A stretch of DNA of 64,000 bases from Picocystis sp. L7 (lineage: Eukaryota > Chlorophyta > Picocystophyceae > Picocystales > Picocystaceae): the NCBI GenBank assembly GCA_020975725.1, contig QXJR01000027.1, forward strand, positions 496,001 to 560,000, written 5' to 3'. A program made the position numbers and the translations under genes. Within the stretch, counting starts at the first letter, position 1. Each line of letters begins with the position of its first letter. Below, one piece after another: positions 7,090 to 42,190 of this stretch. Under the pieces are notes generated by a model. The model had not been told where the DNA came from. It saw nothing but the letters and a program-made list of their open reading frames with translations, and did no database searches.

Positions 7090-8028
7090 CTATAACGGCA
7101 AGGGTTCGTCTTCCCGAACCCTTTTCTGTCCCTTTCCTGCCGATTCAAGCAAGTAGTTGTGGTCCGTGTGCAGTTTGCGGATGGCCTCTTTCGCAGCCTT
7201 CTGTTGCGCTCCTTTTTTGCTCGCTGCAGTCCCCGTGCCCAGGAGCATCCCATACACTTCCACTTGGCATGTGAACATCTTTTGATGATCCGGTCCTTCT
7301 TCGGACATGTCGATGTACTTGGGTAGGTCACCGGAGTTCTTCAATACTATTTCTTGCAGGTTGGACTTGTAGTTTTCGTTGAAGGAGACCGAACCAAACC
7401 TGGGATGGATGAACTTGTAGAAGAACTCTCTGGATGCAATGATCCCTCCGTCGAGGTAGATGGCCGCCACGATGGCTTCCACGCAGCACGCCAGGATCCT
7501 GCACTTGTTCCTTCCTCCGGTGTTTTCCTCTCCACTTCCCAGCAGGATGTATCCACCGAGGGCAAGCTCACGGGCCACGGACGCGAGTGCCTTTTGATCC
7601 ACGAGCCCCGACCTCATCTTGGTCATGAAGCCTTCTTGCATCTGGGGGTACTGCTTGAAGATCTGTTCGGACACGTTGAGCTGTATGACGGCGTCACCGA
7701 GGAACTCGAGCCTTTCGTTGCATTCCAGCAGTCGGTTTTCGTGTCGGTAGGAGCTGTGGGTCAAGGCTTGCACGAGCAGCAGGCGTCCTTCGTCCGAGAA
7801 GGTGTATCCCAGCCTGGACTGCAGCCTTTCCACCTGCTTCAGGTACGTTTGGTCCAGGTGCGACAGGGCTTCCAGCATGGCCGTGCGCACGTCTGCGCGT
7901 GATCCTGTCGGTTCCAACTCTCGAATCCACCTCCACTTCCGCCCCTGGAGCAGTTCGCCAGGGTCCTCCCCCCCTTCCTCTTCTCTCTTATGGGGGAAAG
8001 GGGGGGGGGTCGTTTCGGAAGGGAACAT
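7090..8028 (-). CDS. RNase III family protein with dsRBD (copy B), altered active site
   Basis: 312 aa from the ATG at 8028, chosen because it is the first ATG after the neighbouring gene's stop; a start at 7878 is also possible. The RNase III domain contains the signature NERLEFLGDAVIQL and the region ILACCVEAIVAAIYLDGG. A double-stranded RNA-binding domain follows (NYKSNLQEIVLKNSG through GAQQKAAKEAIRKL). Class I RNase III enzymes cleave dsRNA as dimers using two Glu and two Asp. Here the Asp of the ADxxEA motif (D114 in E. coli) is Cys, while the other three carboxylates are kept. The protein may therefore be catalytically impaired or work as a structural or RNA-binding factor. Its tandem paralogue lies immediately upstream in the same orientation. 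Location and substrate are unknown. Confidence 0.85.
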   Translation of the reverse strand: MFPSETTPPPFPHKREEEGGEDPGELLQGRKWRWIRELEPTGSRADVRTAMLEALSHLDQTYLKQVERLQSRLGYTFSDEGRLLLVQALTHSSYRHENRLLECNERLEFLGDAVIQLNVSEQIFKQYPQMQEGFMTKMRSGLVDQKALASVARELALGGYILLGSGEENTGGRNKCRILACCVEAIVAAIYLDGGIIASREFFYKFIHPRFGSVSFNENYKSNLQEIVLKNSGDLPKYIDMSEEGPDHQKMFTCQVEVYGMLLGTGTAASKKGAQQKAAKEAIRKLHTDHNYLLESAGKGQKRVREDEPLPL

Positions 8029-8066
8029 GTGGGACGGTGTCGCAGGACGGACGAGTGGACGATGCA

Positions 8067-8870
8067 TTACCGAAACACGAGGCGTGGATGGTGGCGTGGA
8101 CGGAAGGCACGCAGGTGGGGACGGATTGGACGTGGAGAATGCCTGGACAGGCACATCCGTGGACCGCGATCGAAATCCATCGAATCCAAGGCCTGACGCG
8201 CCGCTTCCTGTTGGGCCAATCGACGCCGTCGAGACGTTCCGCGACCCAACACCTCGCCTTTCACTTTCACCAAAGAAGTGTGGATGCGATCGTGCGCAGG
8301 ACCCTCCGGCGGAAGGTCGACGTACGTCGGCAGCTCGTTCCCGTGCTTGAGGAGGAACTCCTGGAGGAGGGACTTGTAGTTGTCTTCCACGCTGGCGGTG
8401 TGGATCTTCGGGAACAAGAATCGCTTGCAGAAAGTGCGTGCAGATTCCAATCCCCCGTCCAAGTAGATGGCCGCAACCAAGGCTTCGAAGCTGCAGCAGA
8501 GCACCCGATCCTTGTTGCTGCCGTTGGACGTGGTTTCGCTGGGTCCCAGCAGCAGGTAACGGCCCAGGTCGAGCTCTCTTGCCACGTTCGCGAGCCCTTT
8601 TTGGCTGACGACGGCGGATCTCAGCTTGGTCATTTCTCCTTCCTGCATGTCGGGATAGGTTTCGTAGATGTTTTCCGCCACCAGCAGCGAGATGACTGCG
8701 TCTCCCAAGAACTCCAGCCTTTCGTTGTTGTATCCCGGCACCAGGCTCCCCACGGACGCGTGCGTCACCGCCTGCACCAGCAGGGACATCCCCGTTTCGC
8801 TGAACGCGTATCCCATGGACCGTTGCAGCACCTTGAGGTTGGCCATCAGCTTCGGCATCCCTTCTCCCAT
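8067..8870 (-). CDS. RNase III family protein with dsRBD (copy A), altered active site
   Basis: 267 aa from the ATG at 8870; the frame is open further upstream, but that part is low-complexity GC-rich sequence. Residues about 8-150 form an RNase III domain with NERLEFLGDAVISLLVAENI and RVLCCSFEALVAAIYLDGG; a dsRBD follows (NYKSLLQEFLLKHGNELPTY to LAQQEAARQALDSMD), then a short basic tail. The catalytic Asp position of LADxxEA is Cys, the same substitution as in copy B. The stop at 8067 lies 38 bp before the chosen start of copy B, so the pair is a tandem duplication and could share a promoter. I considered one fused two-domain protein but saw no convincing splice sites joining the frames. Confidence 0.85.
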   Translation of the reverse strand: MGEGMPKLMANLKVLQRSMGYAFSETGMSLLVQAVTHASVGSLVPGYNNERLEFLGDAVISLLVAENIYETYPDMQEGEMTKLRSAVVSQKGLANVARELDLGRYLLLGPSETTSNGSNKDRVLCCSFEALVAAIYLDGGLESARTFCKRFLFPKIHTASVEDNYKSLLQEFLLKHGNELPTYVDLPPEGPAHDRIHTSLVKVKGEVLGRGTSRRRRLAQQEAARQALDSMDFDRGPRMCLSRHSPRPIRPHLRAFRPRHHPRLVFR

Positions 8871-9563
8871 CCTTCCCTTCCCTTCCCTATCCCCTCGTCC
8901 CCAAGGCGCACTGGACGTCTTTCGTGCTTGTTTGTGGTGGTTCCCTGTCGCATCCCCACCCCTCCCCTTCCCTAGGTTCCCTCGATTGGGTTCGGTTCTT
9001 CTCCCCCCCTTTCTCGACCGACTCCACCCGCCATCCTTCCCTTTCGTCGGTTCCCTTTTGTCCCCCTTTCCTGCGGAGGATCCAGGAGGGCAGGGGGGCT
9101 TCCACCAGGCCCACCCTTGCTCCGAACCCGGACGGAAGACGGAACAGATGCCGAAGAGGACGAGGCAGGGTGCCCGTTGTGAGGTTTGGAAGGAACCCCG
9201 CGTCCTCGACGGCGATCGCCATCGGAGGGAGGATGATTTCAGACGATGCGGAAGGCACGATCTCCATGTCTCGGGACCGTCTGACATCGATCCGTCCGTG
9301 TCTTCGTCCTCGCACGAACCTGTCTTCCGAACGCCCACTCCCTCGATCCTTCCTTCGATCGAACCCCGTCGAGACGGCCATCCACCGCAGAACGGGGCGC
9401 CGCCACCCCGCCCCGGTTCGGTGCTCCCTCTTCGGCGTCCGTCGTTCGCCCCGCCTCCCTCCCTCCCCTCCCTCCCTCGCATCCCCCACGACCTCTGCGC
9501 CCGTGCTCGTCGCCCCGTTCCGTTCCCCGCAGAGGAACCCCACCTCGTCCCTCCTCGCGAGGA
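8871..9563. other. Intergenic: divergent promoter with pyrimidine tracts
   Basis: 693 bp between RNase III copy A and the BET gene. It holds strand-asymmetric pyrimidine runs, especially 9452-9481, and a CCGCAGAGGA motif at 9527-9536 that recurs in other gene-free or uncertain stretches (29202, 55591, 55619, 57619). Long open frames on both strands are due to high GC. No gene is recognised. Confidence 0.5.
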
Positions 9564-31376: not shown

Positions 31377-31460
31377 TCCGGTTTCCTCCCTTCTTGGAGG
31401 GACCGTTCATGGACCGTCGATTCCCGTCCATCCATACGGTCTATGGATGGGGTCCGGTTG
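31377..31460. repeat. 78-bp minisatellite, left remnant
   Basis: One unit plus a few bases of a 78-bp tandem repeat, directly left of the transposon, in the same orientation as the copies on its right. It ends in TCCGGTTG (31453-31460), the left copy of the 8-bp target-site duplication. Its first part is 2 bp shorter than the right-hand units. Confidence 0.85.
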
Positions 31461-31465
31461 CAACT

Positions 31466-32061
31466 AGGCTTGGTCCATTTTTTCGTGCTGTTTGGAAGCA
31501 TCTTGGCCTGAGGGATCGTGGGGCGAACCATTCCCCAGATAGGGGTAAATGGGACATCGATCCCGTTGCTCCCCGGTCCCGTTTCGGATGGGCAAATGGG
31601 CCCCCTCTTTCTCTCCCTGTCTCTCCTCTCTCTCAAACCCACACAATCGTACAGCCGGGACATCCAGGCGACTGGACGACGTGCAGGACGAACGTCGGTG
31701 GCAGCGCGTGTCCATGCGCACCAGGGACGGAGCCAAGGAAGGTCGAAACGCGACATCCGAAGCGTGGAAACAGATGCGAAGGGAATGGAAGGAGAAAAGT
31801 GGAGAGGAAAAGAGGACGGGAGCCGCGACGCCGCGACGTGGTCGAATCTTGCCTGGACGACACTGCGAGGAGGACGAGGGGCTGGCGAAGCAAACAAGGG
31901 TGCGTCACCAGTCTTCCTGACACGCAAAAGTATCAGGAAGAATGGTCACGTAGACTAGGGGGGACTCGCGCGAAACGTGTTGACGTGATGGAAGGATGGG
32001 AGGGGAGAGCCCATCCTGGGACTGCGGATGAAAAAAAAAACTGGCAGGTTACATGATGCAT
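31466..32061 (+). repeat. Left terminal inverted repeat of the transposon
   Basis: 596 bp beginning AGGCTTGGTCC, inverted relative to 41445-42039. By base comparison I count one substitution near 31521, one near 32028, and ten rather than nine A residues at 32031-32040. GC-rich, unlike the element interior. Long frames run through it on both strands but have no family features. Confidence 0.93.
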
Positions 32062-32136
32062 AGGTTGGGCAATGGAGAAAACTGCAATATGGTACACTCT
32101 AAAATGGGTGGTATGTCTATTGAAATTTGGGATCCA

Positions 32137-34887
32137 TCAGAGCTCCCTCAACCTTTGTTGCTTCTTGGCATTCCAATACAGAGCTTGAGCGCAAATCAAG
32201 GTAACATATCCAACTTGGGAGCTGAACATCATGCTGTTTTGCCGGCACCGAACAGAAGCATTGAATTGCTCACTTAGAGGACCATTGATGCTTTTGTTGT
32301 GTTTGGAATTGTAGTGCTCAGGAGCAGTCGTATGATTTCTGTGGTGCATTTGATCTTGATAGTAGCGAGTCCTCCCGAAAAAGGACGGCTCACGGAGGCT
32401 GGCTGCCAACTCAAGTTCCTTGCCATTGTCATACACAATTTCTTCAGGTGCATGCTGGAAGAAGGCATAGAGGTACTCCACAATCTCAATTGTACTCTCC
32501 GCATTCTTCTCGTTGATGACATGGAACCCCACAACATTTTCACACCCTCCACAAAGGTAATAAACGAGACCAGGGGTGAAGCTGAAGCTTCTTGCATGCT
32601 CTTTCTCTGGTTCGACCGCACTATCTCTTCCATATTGTCTCGCTGATCTTACCCGTCTTTTTCTTGGCCCCATGGCTCCTACCTTTGTCATTAAGTGTAG
32701 GTTTGAAGTACCCTCAAAAGAGTCCAAGTATGTTGAATGAGACCTACCCTCTCCAGTCTCAACAAGACGCTCTTCAACTGTGCTTCGTTCTACCCGCAGA
32801 AGCAAATACTTTAAGAAGGGGTACAGTTGCTCTTCTTCTGTGAGCTTCATCAGAAATTGCATAGATATACCCAAGAATCTACTGCTTGAAAAAATTCTAG
32901 CAACCAATGGATCCGTGGCCTCGCACATGGACTCCATGGCACAAATTTTCTCCAATATCTTGCGGCAATCTAGAGGTATGAGCGAGTTTAATGGGTAATG
33001 CGATCCAACGGCCATTCCTAACTCTCTGAGGTCCCTCACTAGGTGCCAAAGGTGAAATTTATCCTCCACAAGGCACCCATCCAAGAGCAATATTTGTAGT
33101 TGCCAAGGACATTGAAGTCTCAACTCCAAAACATCTCGATGCTCAAGTCCACTAGTCGCAAGCTTCCATAGCAAATCTCTGGCCTTTTTGTGTAAGTAAT
33201 TTTGCGTGAATGGCTTCACGAAGGTTGGGTTTCTGCAATTCAACCATGGTTGGTCAAATCTTGCAGCCCGCCTTTTCACGCCTAAAACCAACCCATCAAT
33301 GTGAATTCTTTTGCAATTCTTGTCGTCTTGGCAAACGCATTCAAATGGGCAATACTTGTCTATGTCAATGGATGCTATCAAACCTCGCATAGCCTGGCGA
33401 AAGCTGTCTCTTGACGCCTTGATCAATAGCCTTGGGTTCAGGCCTGCAGAAGGAGATGAGTATTGACCTTGTCTCACGAGCGTTGTCAACAAGCTTATGA
33501 ACGAATGTTTTGTCTCCGAGAAGGAATTCCAGCAAAGCATTAGGTCACGCACCAAATATACGTACTGATGATAGCTGACACTCTCTCGTGCACTGCTCTT
33601 GGGAACGAAAAACAAGCCACAAGCCCTCGGGTCGCAAGCACATGTAGGACAAACCCGAGCTCCTTGTAGTTGCACAATCCCGTATTGGCTCACAATTAGA
33701 AAATCATTTTTCGGCTCAAAGGATGAGGTTTGGCACCTTGAACAAACGGTTGAGTCCATAACCTCTCCAAAGCAATTGTCCATATTCAATGCCAGGGTCT
33801 CGCGGTGCTCGCGAATGCTTTCAGCCATAACCCTACTTACTGCTTCTGTTATTTCGTGCATACCAATCGCGACCTCCGTTTGTGTTGAATAGAAAAAATT
33901 TCCAAGTTGTCTCCTTTTGAAAATCATCTCCAGCTTTGCAAATTGTTCAACTTCATTTGCTCGTGTATCCATCGCAGGATCGTTTGGTTCATATGCGCCG
34001 TTATCTAGGAGGATGTCTGTGCAACAACGGCTAGCACATTTTGCATGCACACATGTGCTTGTGTGCCTCTTGCAAGTCAAGCAGATCTCTTGTCCACGTG
34101 TCCCATATTGCCTTGTTAGTCCCCAAGCATGTGCGTTCTCTTTCAACCCACAACAAACTGCCTTGAATGCAAGTCCATTCTCCTCTAGCTCAAACTCGAA
34201 AGCAATGCCAGCCATCGTTCTCCATTGCTCTAGATGTGCTTCGTCGATGGTAGACTTGCCCAAAGGTCTAGATGTCATGTCATGCACAATATCTTCTACT
34301 TCATCTATTCCTAATCCATCACTAAGCATTGTCATCGCACGTTTGAATGGAATCTCTACGTGAAGAATGCGAGGGAATACGCGCATCAAGCTCTGGGCAC
34401 AAGAGCACAATTTCCCGATACCACGGGTCGCCATGTCCATGTGTGCCCAATCGCTTCCCTGACAACCATCAACACTGCAATGGCTCATCAACATACCATC
34501 TACTTTCTTCAAGCTACACACTCCCATTGGCGACACTGTACGATTGCCCATCAAACCCACCACGACAAACACCACCTCATCCATGCCTCTATATATTGTC
34601 GCCACACCATTTGTGGAGAGATACGATTGAAAAAAAAGTTGTGGATGCGACCATGCAGTCAAGTCATCCTCCAATTGCACATCAAGAAGCTCAATACCCA
34701 CATGTTCATCTCGACTATCACTCTCGTGATCAACCACCAATTGTGTTGGAGTGGATCCTTCGGGCACATCCAAGTCCTTTTTTTCACCTTGAAGTGCCGG
34801 ACTCGCATTCTTGGGTCTTTTACTTATATTGACTCTAGCAACATATCTCTTCCTTTGTGACTTCTTGAATCCAAGGTGCTTTGGCAT
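32137..34887 (-). CDS. KDZ-superfamily-like (CxC-type) transposase
   Basis: 916 aa from the ATG at 34887 (MPKHLGFKKSQRKRYV); the frame is open to 35010 without a better start. A Cys/His cluster at about 269-289 (CLTCKRHTSTCVH, then CASRCC) resembles a SWIM-like zinc site; further clusters follow (CPTCACDPRAC, CPFECVC). The C-terminus has the layout GFHVI, then a PEEIVYDNGKELELA segment with Asp about 820, REPSFFGRTRYYQDQMHHRN, and a PLSEQFNA segment with Glu about 873. It parallels the YDNACNL / HWxxH / SEQ layout of the HMG-box/CxC5-CxC6 proteins linked to Kyakuja-Dileera-Zisupton transposases. The usual Cys after YDNA is absent here (Lys). No internal stop is seen, so the ORF appears intact. 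It stops 75 bp before the left TIR. I did not locate the first catalytic Asp with confidence. Confidence 0.78.
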   Translation of the reverse strand: MPKHLGFKKSQRKRYVARVNISKRPKNASPALQGEKKDLDVPEGSTPTQLVVDHESDSRDEHVGIELLDVQLEDDLTAWSHPQLFFQSYLSTNGVATIYRGMDEVVFVVVGLMGNRTVSPMGVCSLKKVDGMLMSHCSVDGCQGSDWAHMDMATRGIGKLCSCAQSLMRVFPRILHVEIPFKRAMTMLSDGLGIDEVEDIVHDMTSRPLGKSTIDEAHLEQWRTMAGIAFEFELEENGLAFKAVCCGLKENAHAWGLTRQYGTRGQEICLTCKRHTSTCVHAKCASRCCTDILLDNGAYEPNDPAMDTRANEVEQFAKLEMIFKRRQLGNFFYSTQTEVAIGMHEITEAVSRVMAESIREHRETLALNMDNCFGEVMDSTVCSRCQTSSFEPKNDFLIVSQYGIVQLQGARVCPTCACDPRACGLFFVPKSSARESVSYHQYVYLVRDLMLCWNSFSETKHSFISLLTTLVRQGQYSSPSAGLNPRLLIKASRDSFRQAMRGLIASIDIDKYCPFECVCQDDKNCKRIHIDGLVLGVKRRAARFDQPWLNCRNPTFVKPFTQNYLHKKARDLLWKLATSGLEHRDVLELRLQCPWQLQILLLDGCLVEDKFHLWHLVRDLRELGMAVGSHYPLNSLIPLDCRKILEKICAMESMCEATDPLVARIFSSSRFLGISMQFLMKLTEEEQLYPFLKYLLLRVERSTVEERLVETGEGRSHSTYLDSFEGTSNLHLMTKVGAMGPRKRRVRSARQYGRDSAVEPEKEHARSFSFTPGLVYYLCGGCENVVGFHVINEKNAESTIEIVEYLYAFFQHAPEEIVYDNGKELELAASLREPSFFGRTRYYQDQMHHRNHTTAPEHYNSKHNKSINGPLSEQFNASVRCRQNSMMFSSQVGYVTLICAQALYWNAKKQQRLREL

Positions 34888-35693
34888 GGTTGAAGGGTAG
34901 GAAGCAAACGTCTCAACCCAAGCAATAACCCCGTTGAAGTAACCTCCTACAACAAAAGAGCAGCCAAGAATTAGTACAACACCACGCTCCTTCATTGTCA
35001 GATCTACCACGCCATCCCCGTCGAATTCTTTTCCGAATACTTTTCAATATTCATGCAACGGACTGGGCAATGTTGACCCCTTCAAGGAAGGTTACTTCCT
35101 CAAGCGCTCATCAACAACCTATGGCGTGCGGCACTCATTTGTCCCGTTCTCTCGTGCAAACTAAGGACACTGTTTGAAACTCCTCGCACTCACCGTCGTC
35201 TGTTCGTCTCAGCGCGGTATTGTGTCCGCCGTCCGCCGTCCGCCGCCCGCCGTCCGCAACCGTTGTTGTGGGACCGGAGCCGGGGTCCCGAGAGGAAACC
35301 AACGCTTTGCTACAGGGGCGGTATCGTCCGTTCGTCGTTCCGAAAGGAGCGGGATCGCCTCGCGTCCACGTCGCGGAAACGTCGACGCACGGTGATCTTA
35401 GGCGTCGCGATCGAATGGCCTTAGTACAGTAGATCCCGTGGTGTTGTGAACGACGTGACGATGGCGTTTAGGCGCGTCTTCTGATGCGTCGACATGCTTC
35501 TGCACCGACGCATCGGAATCAAAACGACGCGTCGGTGCAGCAGCACGCAATCGTGCACGGAACGAGACGGTCAAGCTCAGGCGAGGTTATGTAATGCCAC
35601 GTAAGAACATTACACAACGTGGTTGGTTGCATACGCCTACGCCCACGGAATGCGTCGACGTCGGGCCGCAGGTACACCGACTCGGACGTGTCA
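34888..35693. promoter_or_regulatory. Putative central promoter region of the transposon with CCGCCGT repeats and hairpins
   Basis: 806 bp upstream of the transposase ORF. From about 35170 it becomes GC- and CpG-rich, unlike the rest of the interior. CCGCCGT-type tandem words lie at about 35222-35262. Two overlapping hairpins can form at 35483-35539: GATGCGTCG (35483-35491) with CGACGCATC (35507-35515), or TGCACCGACGC (35501-35511) with GCGTCGGTGCA (35529-35539). The position between outward-facing ORFs suggests a promoter or transposase-binding region. That role is inference only. Confidence 0.45.
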
Positions 35694-35723
35694 CTACCGG
35701 ATGGCGATCGGTGAATGGATGGA

Positions 35724-36053
35724 TCATGTAGGGTGGTAAGGTCCCAACTCACCACAATACATCCATACGTTCGTCTTTTGAACCAGTCTACCGGATTTGG
35801 TAATCAAGTGCCTCCGGCAATGGTTCTCCCACGAGAAAACGAGGCTTTGCCTGGAATTGGCATTGCGATTTGAAATAAGTTCTTCTTGTTCCGCGTAGGT
35901 ATGGTTTTCAACGATAGGCTTCATAGTTTCCATTCCTATTTCTACCGATTCCGCGGAAGAAAAGAGTGCTCGATAGCTTTCGTAGCCACCTCCGCATCTT
36001 TGCAAACATTTCAATCCCATGCACCTAAATTCACGTTGATTGGCGGTGACCAT
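35724..36053 (-). CDS. 109-codon ORF in left foldback arm, duplicate of 37193-37522
   Basis: Same translated sequence as the right-arm ORF, on the opposite strand because the arms are inverted. The companion frame is at 36011-36202. The ORF points toward the transposase gene, while its twin points toward the right-hand ORF, so each half of the element carries one copy. Function is not recognised. Confidence 0.3.
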   Translation of the reverse strand: MVTANQREFRCMGLKCLQRCGGGYESYRALFSSAESVEIGMETMKPIVENHTYAEQEELISNRNANSRQSLVFSWENHCRRHLITKSGRLVQKTNVWMYCGELGPYHPT

Positions 36054-37192
36054 GGACGATGGAAATAGGCAAGCATCTTTTCGGCAATGTCCTTGGCAGT
36101 AGCATCAAGACGCAGAAGACATTGACGACGGGAATTCTCACGCTTCTCCGTGCTAATTCGGTCATCCTCGAAGGGAGTAAGGTATGACCGGGAATCCATC
36201 ACAGTACGTCATCGAACTTCTCCGCAACTAAGTGAAGCGGAAGTTGAATCATCGAAAAACCTTCGGTCCCAAAAAAAACAAACTTGTGGGTCCACTTCGT
36301 GTGGACCCGCCCAATCAACAGAGAGGATTACGGGGAACGTGCAAGCCATTGTGCATGTCCAAGTCCAATGTCCATACTTTTTGCGTCGTCAAGAACGCCA
36401 TCTTCTTCTTCCGCACACTGTCTTCTTCAAGGGAACTAAACGCCAACATGTAAGGGAAAGGATGATGTTGGTGTATGGTTGTAGAATAGGCGTGCTAAGT
36501 ACCGACAATGTGACACCACATTTATGTGAATATTTGCAGTATACGCGAGGGGAACGAAACCATAAAGGGGTTTGCAACCATAGAGGAGGTAACTCCTACA
36601 TATGCAAAGATTTTAGAGCCATACCCTTAAAAACCATACGAGTAAACCGAAATCAATACTGGTCTTCACTAAGCTTACACGAGAGCGTTCACTTGTAAAA
36701 GCTTGGTCTCTTTGTAGTGAAGGGGCTCAAGCACGGAGGAATACCATTGGAAACCCGTGGAGTGTAAACATACACCAACATCATCCTTTCCCTTACATGT
36801 TGGCGTTTAGTTCCCTTGAAGAAGACAGTGTGCGGAAGAAGAAGATGGCGTTCTTGACGACGCAAAAAGTATGGACATTGGACTTGGACATGCACAATGG
36901 CTTGCACGTTCCCCGTAATCCTCTCTGTTGATTGGGCGGGTCCACACGAAGTGGACCCACAAGTTTGTTTTTTTTGGGACCGAAGGTTTTTCGATGATTC
37001 AACTTCCGCTTCACTTAGTTGCGGAGAAGTTCGATGACGTACTGTGATGGATTCCCGGTCATACCTTACTCCCTTCGAGGATGACCGAATTAGCACGGAG
37101 AAGCGTGAGAATTCCCGTCGTCAATGTCTTCTGCGTCTTGATGCTACTGCCAAGGACATTGCCGAAAAGATGCTTGCCTATTTCCATCGTCC

Positions 37193-37522
37193 ATGGTCAC
37201 CGCCAATCAACGTGAATTTAGGTGCATGGGATTGAAATGTTTGCAAAGATGCGGAGGTGGCTACGAAAGCTATCGAGCACTCTTTTCTTCCGCGGAATCG
37301 GTAGAAATAGGAATGGAAACTATGAAGCCTATCGTTGAAAACCATACCTACGCGGAACAAGAAGAACTTATTTCAAATCGCAATGCCAATTCCAGGCAAA
37401 GCCTCGTTTTCTCGTGGGAGAACCATTGCCGGAGGCACTTGATTACCAAATCCGGTAGACTGGTTCAAAAGACGAACGTATGGATGTATTGTGGTGAGTT
37501 GGGACCTTACCACCCTACATGA
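37193..37522 (+). CDS. 109-codon ORF in right foldback arm, unknown
   Basis: Starts MVTANQREFRCMGLKCLQRC and ends CGELGPYHPT. It is rich in Cys, Arg and Glu with a balanced composition, so it could be a real peptide. An overlapping frame at 37044-37235 (63 codons, MMDSRSYLTPFEDDRIS) lies just upstream and might belong with it through splicing. The identical ORF exists on the minus strand of the left arm at 35724-36053. No family is recognised, and expression is unknown. Confidence 0.3.
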   Translation: MVTANQREFRCMGLKCLQRCGGGYESYRALFSSAESVEIGMETMKPIVENHTYAEQEELISNRNANSRQSLVFSWENHCRRHLITKSGRLVQKTNVWMYCGELGPYHPT

Positions 37523-37552
37523 TCCATCCATTCACCGATCGCCATCCGGTAG

Positions 37553-40451
37553 ATGAGTTGTAAAATCTCCCATGGCACCTCATCATCGCATCCACCAAGT
37601 GTTGCCACTACGTTGCCTATTGTTGAGCAAGCTTGCCACTGATGGGCTCGTTTAGATGAATAGCACGTTGCTATCAACAATCTTAAGCAATGTTATAGGA
37701 TGTTAATTCACTAGACTTAATGTGTTGGGTGAGTAGCAAAAGCTTTTTGAAAACCATGTTTCACAAGGTTGCGGAGCGTCGAGGTAGCTTCCTCTTTTTT
37801 CGTACCTCACTACTTTCATTCATTTATCTCTGGTATTATTCGCCATATCTGGCTTCTGGTTGGGGCGTAACCTTGCCGAACGTGCCTCCCTAACCCTCAT
37901 GTACCTTCTCTGAAGTGTGTGTGGTTGTTGTCATACACAATTGCTCATGAGATGTGTTGGTCCATGCTAGTACTACCATTTTTAAATGCGATGCAAGGTC
38001 CACTTGGCTATCACGCGTACTTATGAAGCGATCATGTGCTCGATTTGGAACGAGTACAAAGATGTGCACGTAAATCTCTAGTAGTCCTTGACGTGGCAAC
38101 AGACTCGAAGGGTATAACAAGCCACATTGCTTTAGCATTGACAATGAATGGCTTTTCAGGTGATCTCTCGGCTTTGAAGACATGCAACGGTAGAAAGGTA
38201 GGAGCGCTTATTGATGGGCAAGAATTTAAGTAGTCTTTCAACGGACATGCAAGTACATGCACACATTCCGCATGGGGCCACCGTAGGTACGGCCTACTAT
38301 ATGAGTCATTGGCCCGATACAAATGTAGGAACTATTGTGTTGCATATTAGTTTCATTCGTTCAATGATATTTGGCCGAGTATCACTTGATGAATTTAAAC
38401 TCAGGCATTTTTCTATATCCATTGCCTTTTGTCTAGACGGCAAGCCAATGATAAAGCGATTCTCTATCACCTATCCCAAGCTCAAATCTTTGAGCAATCC
38501 TAGCGGTCACTCGCTATCCGAGTTTACATTGGATTAGGGAACCAACTACATGATTGCGTCTCTTCATCGAAGCCTTCGTGGTTGCCGAAGAAGTAATCAA
38601 ATTGGTCGAAACTCCCACTGCAATCTTGTGCCTTTTACTTCCCGGGAGACAAATTGTGGATGCTTGGTGGGGGCCAACAACGCGTCGAATAGTAACCAAA
38701 GTGTGCAAGGGCTTCCTACGAAAAAAAGAATGAAGCATGGCACCTCAAATGTGCATAGGAATGATTGTAACGCGCATCCTAGTCGGAAAGAAGGGTCCAT
38801 GCCATAGATAAGGATATTGTTATATGTACGGCTAACACGATGGCCAAAAGGCTATGCTTCCATACATCAGCGGGTGCATGGAATAGAGTTCAAGTGCGAC
38901 GCATAGTACAAAAAATTTCGGAATGAATTTGGACAACGATGAAATGAGTATTGCATGAAGAACACATACAAATAAAAATGCAATTGACTCCTTGGCCTAC
39001 GTGGACAAGCGCATGCAGGCTCACCAAAAAGTGCCGGGCATCCTTCTCCAACTTTTTCCAGCGGGCAATGGAGGGATGCATGTGCACGTATCCGTAGTTT
39101 GCGAGGACGTTCGAATCCTCGTAGAACGCCATTCATCGACTGGCGTTCCACGTGTCACGTTTTACCTGTTTGATCGAGAGAGCTTAACTTGAAACTCGGT
39201 TCCCCGTCCGTGATGCGACGTTGTTGTCCGCATCAACGGTGGGGTCCGTCGGTGTTCCCCTTCTTGCTGGTGAGGTAGATGAACGTTGTCCCTTTGTATC
39301 TCTCAAACCGCGGTTTGGATTGACACGTACAACCTGTCATTCAGTAGAACTTACAGTGTAATATCGTACTATGTTACTTGTACGCTTCAAAACGCTTTTG
39401 GTGAGATTTTACATGCCATAAGCAACTGTCACTTCAAAGAAGGTACCTCATACCGTTCGATAGACACGCTTTGCCAAGTAGCTCCCCAACCACGAAATCT
39501 ACCACAGCGATCAAGACGTTCAAAGAAAGAACGGAAGTTGAAAATATGGCGTGAAACAAAAAGTACAGCAAGATGCGTTGTTCATTCCGAACACGCAATT
39601 TGCCAATTGGCGTCTCAAGCACGCAAGGAAAAGCATGGTTTGTGAACGTCACGTCCCCCACCGAGGCCGAACAAAGCATGGGTCACGAGGCTACTGGTGA
39701 GGAAAGACCGTCCCAGTGAAAGAGCGTTCAAGACGATGGAGACTCATGCCAAACTCACGGGCAAGACATGACTTAGTGGCACTGGAGCACTTGGGACTCC
39801 TCCGCCCACAAAACTGCCACAAGGGTCCCCCGACCCTTGTGGGTCCTTAGCCTTGAGTCGGACAGGATGAGACTCGTTTGGTGTCATTCGACCCATATAC
39901 CTTGCCCGATCGAGTGAATCATAAACTTGGTACGAATAGAAGAAAATGTGATAGTGGCACATCAAGGGTCGATGCTTGCCACAGTTGCTTATACACATTG
40001 GGACTACCAAACCCCAGTGCAGCTTCGACTCACGGCCAATAGTCAAGCATAAAGCTCGTGGCTTAGTGCATGGTACAAAATTAGCTCCAAGGTACGAATC
40101 TTTTAGAGAAAGTCATTCTTCATGAGACGTAGGAGGTTGCCATCGATTGGCTCCACATCGTTGCAAGCAATTTCATCCACTCTGATAGAGTGGTAGAAAA
40201 AGGGATCGAATCTATAAGTCGAGGACTTCAAAAGCCATTTCTTTTTGTGTCTTTTGAATAGCCTTTATTGGCATTCTATTGTGCAATGTAAGCTTGGAGA
40301 TTGTTGTAGAAATCGCGCGAAATGCATGTGTAAACTGTGTTGAAGGATTGGGATTGAATGTGGACCGCGTCGAAGGGTCAATAGGATATCAACATGCTCT
40401 TGCTTCAATGCACCACTACATGTGTAAGGAGATCGTGAAAATCCATCCTCG
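37553..40451. other. Transposon interior without recognised gene
   Basis: 2.9 kb of AT-rich sequence between the foldback and the right-hand ORF. Only short frames (under 125 codons) exist and none resembles a known domain. It may contain introns or upstream exons of the right-hand gene, or decayed sequence. No tandem repeat or RNA gene is evident. Confidence 0.45.
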
Positions 40452-41372
40452 ATGGATGGTACGACGAGGGAGAGGTGTTTGTCACCGCAAGGGGTCTTCC
40501 AACTAAAAAGTATGCATAGAAAGGGCCAGACTTCCTTCTATTGCCCATCTATCTTCTCCGTGATTAGACGAAACAGATCTCGATTGGCCCCCTACGAGGT
40601 AAAAGGCTTCTTCGGTTTCGTGGTGCGGTCATCGGACTTCGACGGCATTGCAAGCAACTCCAGCGTTCGAAAAGCATCAGCGCTTTACTTGAGAACAGTG
40701 CAGACGAGAAGGAGTATGGAAGGCTACGTTGAGCCGGTGCACAACACATCGTTGGGCCTCCCATTGAGGGCCACCACCTTCTCTCACTTGGTCAATGCTT
40801 TGAAGTATCTTGAAAAGGCAAAGAAGAAAGAAGAAAGGTTACATTATGTTTTGTTGCTTTGCAAGGACAATCATTCTTCTACAGTTCACTCTGAAAGCCT
40901 AGAGCATTTGCCGATCTTAGGGTATTGGATGAGAGAAGCACCGGACATGATCCGCACACACCTCGCCATGCAAGTCGAGATCGATGCTAGGCGGTCTCGA
41001 AATGGCACACAGAGGACCCTCAGCTTACAGCAGAATTGTGTTGCTATTAGATATGTGCAAAAAGCAATTGTATCGAACATTCCGAGAAAATCAAAGGCAC
41101 TGCCCCTTGAGCACGGCGGGACTCGTCCAACCTTACTCTCCGCACGCCAACGGGATTTGTTGAGCAAGGAAGCACCATGGTGGCCATATGAAAAAGTTGG
41201 GTGGTACTCCTTCACCAAGCCAAATGCAAATATGCAAAGGGAGGCTGCTGAGGTCTTGAGGCTGTGCATGGCCAACATGAACGAGGCACACTACCAATTC
41301 GCTCTTGCACTTTCCGTGGGAGAAGGAAATGACCATGTGTCACTTTTTATGCAAGAGCATTGGAGGAAGTAA
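40452..41372 (+). CDS. Second transposon ORF, unknown function
   Basis: 306 aa from the ATG at 40452 (alternative Met at 40512). The protein is basic with well-mixed composition, for example LVNALKYLEKAKKKEERLHY, SLEHLPILGYWMREAPDMIR and APWWPYEKVGWYSF. No zinc cluster, catalytic triad or helicase motif is visible. It ends 72 bp before the right TIR and points outward, mirroring the transposase at the other end. It is probably an accessory protein of the element or the last exon of a longer gene. Codon use and AT content match the element interior, not the host. Confidence 0.6.
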   Translation: MDGTTRERCLSPQGVFQLKSMHRKGQTSFYCPSIFSVIRRNRSRLAPYEVKGFFGFVVRSSDFDGIASNSSVRKASALYLRTVQTRRSMEGYVEPVHNTSLGLPLRATTFSHLVNALKYLEKAKKKEERLHYVLLLCKDNHSSTVHSESLEHLPILGYWMREAPDMIRTHLAMQVEIDARRSRNGTQRTLSLQQNCVAIRYVQKAIVSNIPRKSKALPLEHGGTRPTLLSARQRDLLSKEAPWWPYEKVGWYSFTKPNANMQREAAEVLRLCMANMNEAHYQFALALSVGEGNDHVSLFMQEHWRK

Positions 41373-41444
41373 CATACCTCCTGGTAACACATGGTCATAT
41401 CCTCCTCAAGCTTTGTCACCGGCAGTGTAGATTTAAGTGGAAGA

Positions 41445-42039
41445 TGCATCATGTAACCTGCCAGTTTTTTTTTTCATCTGCAGTCCCAGGATGGGCTCTC
41501 CCCTCCCATCCTTCCATCACGTCAACACGTTTCGCGCGAGTCCCCCCTAGTCTACGTGACCATTCTTCCTGATACTTTTGCGTGTCAGGAAGACTGGTGA
41601 CGCACCCTTGTTTGCTTCGCCAGCCCCTCGTCCTCCTCGCAGTGTCGTCCAGGCAAGATTCGACCACGTCGCGGCGTCGCGGCTCCCGTCCTCTTTTCCT
41701 CTCCACTTTTCTCCTTCCATTCCCTTCGCATCTGTTTCCACGCTTCGGATGTCGCGTTTCGACCTTCCTTGGCTCCGTCCCTGGTGCGCATGGACACGCG
41801 CTGCCACCGACGTTCGTCCTGCACGTCGTCCAGTCGCCTGGATGTCCCGGCTGTACGATTGTGTGGGTTTGAGAGAGAGGAGAGACAGGGAGAGAAAGAG
41901 GGGGCCCATTTGCCCATCCGAAACGGGACCGGGGAGCAACGGGATCGATGTCCCATTTACCCCTATCTGGGGAATGGTTCGCCCTACGATCCCTCAGGCC
42001 AAGATGCTTCCAAACAGCACGAAAAAATGGACCAAGCCT
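41445..42039 (-). repeat. Right terminal inverted repeat of the transposon
   Basis: 595-bp inverted partner of 31466-32061. The inner end begins ATGCATCATG and the outer end is GGACCAAGCCT. The five bases outside it (TACTC, 42040-42044) do not pair with the matching five on the left (CAACT), so the outermost bases are not inverted. Confidence 0.93.
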
Positions 42040-42044
42040 TACTC

Positions 42045-42190
42045 TCCGGTTGTTCCTCCCTCCTGGGAGGGACCGTTCATGGACCGTCGATTCCCGTCCA
42101 TCCATACGGTCTATGGATGGGGTCCGGTTGTTCCTCCCTCCTGGGAGGGACCGTTCATGGACCGTCGATTCCCGTCCATCCATACGGTCT
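42045..42190. repeat. 78-bp minisatellite, right part
   Basis: About 1.9 units with an exact 78-bp period (the word GACCGTTCAT is at 42071 and 42149). The first eight bases, TCCGGTTG, are the right copy of the target-site duplication. The second unit carries the undisrupted junction at 42122-42129. As 78 is a multiple of three, the repeat keeps a 26-codon open frame, but it lies upstream of the SEC15 start and is probably untranslated. Confidence 0.9.

Follow-up and report, generated by a model that had tools for sequence, protein, structure and literature searches.

The stretch of Picocystis sp. L7 DNA analyzed here, called the window (contig QXJR01000027.1, positions 496,001 to 560,000; 64,000 nucleotides), carries a 10,584-bp element at positions 31461-42044. 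Two open reading frames (ORFs), ORF1 and ORF2, lie between long terminal inverted repeats (TIRs), and the whole is flanked by an 8-bp target site duplication (TSD). The element is the window copy (contig C25) of a group of closely similar copies, family A, which very probably represents an autonomous, recently amplified DNA transposon that the profiles used do not place in any catalogued superfamily. Its features are as follows.

31453..31460, no strand: left TSD, TCCGGTTG
31461..31465, plus strand: left outer cap CAACT, without an inverted counterpart at the right end, in 9/9 family A copies
31466..32061, plus strand: left TIR, 596 bp, matching the right TIR at 594/596 positions
32137..34887, minus strand: ORF1, transposase-like, 916 amino acids (aa), ATG at 34887, stop at 32139-32137, intact in 8/9 copies
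35694..36480, plus strand: first arm of the central inverted repeat, 787 bp, in 9/9 copies
36481..36765, no strand: loop between the central arms, 285 bp
36766..37552, minus strand: second arm of the central inverted repeat, 787 bp
40716..41372, plus strand: ORF2, 218 aa, intact in 9/9 copies
41444..42039, minus strand: right TIR, 596 bp
42040..42044, plus strand: right outer cap TACTC, in 9/9 family A copies
42045..42052, no strand: right TSD, TCCGGTTG
42101..42150, no strand: paralogous empty site in the adjacent 78-bp tandem repeat

Ends, target sites and copies of the element

The TIR search covered 20.5 Mb of genome in 30 contigs, and all copy counts are lower bounds. It returned at least 25 matches, corresponding to both ends of nine full-length copies and to relics. 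The full-length copies of family A, at least nine in number, are spread over eight contigs: C25 (window), C13, C21, C22, C27 (two copies, a and b), C7, C10, and C4. Inside the TSDs, all nine read CAACT-AGGCTTGG...CCAAGCCT-TACTC, and the nine TSDs are each perfect and all different (TCCGGTTG, CATTTTGG, GGGGATTG, CCCGGGTG, GGGAGGGG, GGGGGAAG, CAGGACGA, TGGACCGA, and TGGTAGAG). The original prediction, made from the window alone, had described a precisely bounded DNA transposon with an 8-bp direct repeat at its borders, both of which are borne out, and had proposed searching the genome for further TIR copies and 8-bp duplications; the nine copies refute the possibility that the TIR is absent elsewhere. 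It had also given the TIRs as 595 bp long and about 99.5% identical. Long, near-identical TIRs were indeed found, with the length and identity corrected to the values listed above. The window copy was inserted within a 78-bp tandem repeat, whose downstream unit has kept the empty site (junction 42130/42131), a letter-for-letter match over the 50 bases compared.

A sister family, family B, shares 62 to 63% protein identity with family A, measures 5.9 kb in its copy on contig C8, and has TIRs of about 140 bp. The four full-length copies of it that were examined all carry 8-bp TSDs (TCCCCCCC, CGTCCCGC, GGCACGGG, and GTCCTGGT) and the caps CAAAT and GACTC. Because 8-bp duplications flank 9/9 copies of family A and 4/4 of family B, the nine being mutually different, a chance origin of the TSDs is excluded. 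In neither family are the two 5-bp caps inverted copies of each other, and jointly they follow the pattern CAAMT...KACTC. Their presence in all nine copies of family A assigns them to the element; they are also kept in family B, whose alignable DNA is only about 70 to 75% identical to that of family A, and are therefore element sequence. At C13:9.9 kb (family A) and C15:664.9 kb (family B), the two families occupy adjacent 8-bp sites in two copies of seemingly one host sequence, with GGCACGGGCATTTT in common.

Four copies (window, C13, C21, and C27b) do not differ over 10,584 bp, yet they occupy different sites. The C22 copy differs from the window copy at 13 of 10,438 aligned positions, besides a 2.6-kb insert. 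Identity to the window copy is about 99.4 to 99.5% for C27a and C7 and, by segment, 97 to 99% for C10 and C4. ORF1 is open in eight of the nine copies (two stops in C4) and ORF2 in all nine, so that both are open in eight. Since identity between copies is high, including four identical ones, and the ORFs are open, amplification was very recent. As the original prediction had proposed, family A is perhaps still active. Letter-identical copies could be the product of segmental duplication or of an artifact of assembly. This reading is refuted in substance by the different, exact 8-bp duplications at 13/13 examined insertions and by the paralogous empty site, and we regard it as highly improbable.

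Several copies have themselves been altered. Inside the left TIR of the C22 copy (L040:721-3351) lies a 2.63-kb insert without evident TIRs; its 715-aa product looks, by eye, like a Crypton-type tyrosine recombinase and had no Pfam match at E ≤ 1. One TIR of the C4 copy (C4:375.65-376.44 kb) is interrupted by about 0.8 kb of additional DNA with an apparent 5-bp duplication. A relic of the family at C24:1175886-1178217 consists of one TIR at 91% identity and an ORF2 with one stop; its second TIR and ORF1 were not among the matches listed.

Inverted repeats within copies

The central inverted repeat (35694-36480 and 36766-37552) is a feature beyond those of the original prediction. Within any one copy, its two arms differ by 1 to 3 mismatches and up to four gap columns (9/9 copies measured), whereas the arms of C10 and C4 show 24 to 25 mismatches against the window's arm. 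The TIRs behave similarly in the seven of nine copies in which pairs were measured, C22 and C4 being excluded for their inserts. The TIR pair of C27a is identical (595/595), as is that of C7, and each pair differs from the window TIRs by three mismatches and one gap per side. The arms of a copy therefore change in concert, as the difference within copies is small and that between copies is larger. Orientation also varies: the loop between the central arms is inverted relative to the window in 3/9 copies (C7, C10, and C4), and in C10 the whole interior is flipped with respect to the caps. Recombination within one molecule, or conversion from arm to arm, would account for both the likeness of the arms and the inversions.

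These observations led us to reject TIR identity as a measure of age, as TIRs and central arms are homogenized within copies. The original prediction had concluded from near-identical TIRs that the element is young; the argument fails, and the youth itself is upheld by the four identical copies. Part of the central 2.9-kb stretch has 66 to 68% DNA identity to C4:870k and C4:758k.

The two proteins and their relatives

ORF1 is the 916-codon, transposase-like frame of the original prediction, and its start is fixed by the sequence MPKHL, MPKYL, or MPKHF conserved among relatives. Between the window and C10 copies, the ratio of nonsynonymous to synonymous substitutions (dN/dS) was 0.20. The YDN/HxN/SEQ layout noticed earlier is present and conserved across the ORF1 family. 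Three candidate catalytic codons lie on the minus strand.

33295..33297, minus strand: D531 (IHIDG), candidate first catalytic residue, invariant, on strand b1 of the model
32428..32430, minus strand: D820 (VYDN), candidate second catalytic residue, invariant, spanned by the weak rve match
32269..32271, minus strand: E873 (PLSEQ), candidate third catalytic residue, invariant

All three are invariant in a seven-row alignment (A2, one row being a fragment), which holds other invariant acidic residues too, so their catalytic role is a matter of interpretation. General Pfam scans of seven ORF1 proteins matched rve in 5/7, with a best E value of 0.086, and gave two further weak matches, each in a single member. 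An NCBIfam scan found no match; a sequence search of PDB with ORF1 returned one weak match (a CHORD-containing protein, E 0.58), and an ORF1 profile returned none. The structure model of full-length ORF1 had a predicted local distance difference test (pLDDT) score of 39.9, and Foldseek gave no match for it at E ≤ 0.001. KDZ does not appear among the structures listed, an absence that carries no information. An RNase-H-like core is modeled weakly. At the fold level, the secondary-structure order of the core is weakly the same as in retroviral integrase, Mos1, and TnsB, which differ from ORF1 in that the latter is modeled with about 240 residues between the first and second core strands. ORF1 is a putative transposase of the DDE type, with a core that may be RNase-H-like.

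For ORF2, stops and ATG delimit 306 to 314 codons; conservation sets the start at 40716, giving 218 aa. With 170/221 aligned positions identical in family B, ORF2 is more conserved than ORF1. The two-gene structure noted in the original prediction therefore stands, both genes being conserved in family B. The ORF2 proteins of four lineages can be aligned along their whole length, and stretches such as APWW and IPxKSK contain invariant residues. By sequence and by profile, PDB yielded only weak flavoprotein and ribosomal L22 matches. Among curated profile families, none exceeded the cut-off, and no fold was assigned; UbiD, Stb3, and PRAS were rejected as the ORF2 family, each lying below the cut-off and appearing in 1/4 members in the family scan.

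Homologues of ORF2 gave 31 matches in the genome, its own copies included. Divergent, head-to-head ORF1/ORF2 pairs recur down to about 28 to 35% identity: they are seen in a third lineage, at 35% ORF2 identity, and at 28 to 29% in three decayed copies on C4, C6, and C12. The remaining ORF2 homologues had no nearby ORF1 match among the matches listed. Since this head-to-head arrangement is kept in families A and B and in the third and decayed lineages, ORF2 is probably an accessory protein and partner of the transposase, judging from gene arrangement. Pairs of ORF2-like fragments in opposite orientation, about 0.9 to 1.3 kb from start to start, occur at C1:747-749k, C11:272-274k, C14:5-7k, and C4:1136-1139k; they too lack a nearby ORF1 among the matches listed and are perhaps non-autonomous relatives.

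Families A and B align at the DNA level in the two genes and the ends and nowhere else. The center of family B is a 57-bp minisatellite, in which no long central inverted repeat was found save imperfect self-matches of the array. In the third lineage (L024 and L056; C10:571617-578700), the interval between the two start codons holds a near-perfect inverted repeat. Its arms, of about 440 bp, lack significant similarity to those of family A and lie about 90 bp from each start codon, so that both genes may have mirror-image promoters. Arrays of a 54-bp minisatellite lie on both flanks in inverted orientation, the outer ends being beyond the stretch examined.

Long TIRs and the weak rve resemblance might also suggest that an integrase-bearing virus, or a virophage-like element, has integrated here. 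However, only the two genes and the ends align with family B at the DNA level, and no viral domain was detected by Pfam, save the weak rve match, in either gene or in 10 other interior ORF readings, a subset of those of at least 100 aa. The latter gave only nitrile hydratase (E 0.07) and UbiD (E 0.094), both far below the cut-off. Two peptide patterns run against viral_contigs produced 113 pattern matches, with no relative confirmed. We therefore rejected a viral origin, to which we assign almost no weight, for lack of viral domains in the scanned proteins.

Classification, mechanism and setting

The original prediction had called the element KDZ-like. Profiles for KDZ (PF18758), CxC5, and CxC6 (PF18718 and PF18721) matched none of seven proteins (window ORF1 and six relatives, one a fragment) at E ≤ 10, nor a majority consensus built from the last 519 positions of ORF1, nor anything in the whole genome at E ≤ 1; as 14 control genomes were also silent, the sensitivity of this test is uncalibrated. 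CxC1 to CxC4 were covered by the general Pfam scans. No hAT family was among the three Pfam families listed for the seven ORF1 proteins, HMMER filters dropping most matches above about 0.1. A failure to match these profiles was the outcome that the original prediction had named as speaking against it, and the KDZ label is not supported. The arrangement D-G ... YDN ... SEQ presumably resembles the C-terminal motifs of CxC5/CxC6 proteins.

Other features are shared with KDZ elements without being diagnostic. The 8-bp TSDs of 13/13 examined insertions in families A and B are as expected for KDZ and are common to hAT elements as well (PMC12730594); TIRs are present in both families, and Kyakuja of Laccaria is a KDZ element without them. 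KDZ1 of Cryptococcus neoformans resembles family A in its size of about 11 kb, its long TIRs, its 8-bp TSDs, and its few full-length copies. It differs in having 241-bp TIRs and recognized KDZ and CxC1 domains, none of which was found in family A, and the available text of its description mentions no conserved second gene (PMC12810828). Long TIRs are hence less unusual for KDZ than the original prediction had held, and the 596 bp of family A still exceed the lengths given in the available parts of PMC12810828 and PMC12477816. Ectocarpus KDZ elements reach 30.3 kb (PMC12477816). Zisupton and Dileera have 8-bp TSDs, and Zisupton has TIRs (PMC12730594); no profile similarity to them was found, nor any TET/JBP domain match in the family proteins scanned. 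Kyakuja also starts with 5'-CA and, as Kyakuja-3_cRei of Chlamydomonas, is mobile in a green alga (PMC10828217). As described for Laccaria, however, it has 7-bp TSDs, no TIRs, and CA..TG termini (PMC12730594), compared with 8 bp, 596-bp TIRs, and CA..TC in family A. In Pleurotus, CxC5/CxC6 proteins are encoded in repeated 6.8-kb inserts with a 739-aa ORF (PMC7641404); the inserts are repeated as here, and ORF1 has no CxC5/CxC6 profile match.

A KDZ or CxC5/CxC6-group member too divergent for current profiles is possible, at well under an even chance. The 8-bp TSDs shared with Zisupton and Dileera, the size and long TIRs shared with KDZ1, the occurrence of KDZ elements in green and brown algae (PMC8226300, PMC10828217, and PMC12477816), and the presumed likeness of the D-G ... 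YDN ... SEQ order to CxC5/CxC6 proteins favor it. The KDZ/CxC group is the nearest suspect, and a remote relationship is possible. The silent profiles and the right end TC, as opposed to the TG of Laccaria Kyakuja (PMC12730594), speak against it. As the profile tests failed and the KDZ-like features (8-bp TSD, length, and TIR) are not diagnostic, we leave the element unassigned.

Nearly even chances attach to the alternative that these are two-gene DDE transposons of eukaryotes forming a new superfamily, no closer to KDZ than other RNase-H-like transposases are. Neither protein reaches a curated family cut-off, and both families whose ends were seen have a conserved second gene and non-inverted caps. 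Moreover, a search of 5.77 billion proteins found only five distinct relatives (3, 2, and 2 per search), none with a Pfam domain; it detects only relatives sharing exact 5-residue words, so that missing matches are weak evidence. The presumed resemblance to the CxC layout also tells against this alternative. Somewhat more tentatively, the element may represent an undescribed superfamily of eukaryotic two-gene transposons in which a very long insert follows the first catalytic strand of the DDE transposase, the 218-aa partner is obligatory, and non-inverted 5-bp ends cap the TIRs. Concerted evolution would keep its long inverted repeats (terminal, and central in two of three lineages examined) alike, and flips of the interior between them would turn one insertion into several isomers.

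Whatever its rank, dispersed copies, TIRs, fixed-length TSDs, and three conserved acidic residues are as expected of DDE transposons in general, and TSD, TIR, and protein sequence together point to the cut-and-paste type. The best reading is an undescribed lineage of autonomous DDE-type DNA transposons; among the titles and abstract openings listed by a literature search, none described the element, which is not proof that no description exists. With D531, D820, and E873 in its core, ORF1 would bind the TIRs, cut the element at its CAACT/TACTC ends, and insert it at host-DNA cuts offset by 8 bp. ORF2 may serve the same reaction as a required accessory protein, for example by binding the ends or helping the complex to assemble. 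Once the element is in place, its long inverted repeats would pair with each other; gene conversion could keep the arms alike, and crossing over between paired arms could invert either the central loop alone or the entire interior.

The window also holds ORFs that by eye resemble a homomeric acetyl-CoA carboxylase, GAPDH, and geranylgeranyl-reductase-like, RAPTOR-like, and Sec15-like proteins, a content from which the host looks photosynthetic. Two adjacent RNase III-like genes (by eye) at 7090-9482, minus strand, are probably a tandem duplication. The genome has a RuBisCO small-subunit gene on contig C6; as C6 also carries element relatives, this gene is probably nuclear. A nuclear RuBisCO small-subunit gene argues for a green-type plastid. 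P0004, a distant relative labeled in EukProt as Pavlova lutheri (Diacronema lutheri, a haptophyte), is identical to an ORF of the Picocystis genome. This label is at odds with the nuclear gene, and therefore the record is likely mislabeled or contaminated, or the host is unexpected.

These findings describe, within a compact algal genome, a DNA transposon that is precisely bounded and apparently live. Its four identical copies and intact genes make family A a natural starting point for a microalgal transposition assay. Identical TIRs alongside clear divergence between copies, serving as internal controls, indicate that TIR identity is unfit for dating long-TIR elements. The conserved second gene stands for a protein family not yet classified, and the role of this family is amenable to direct tests.

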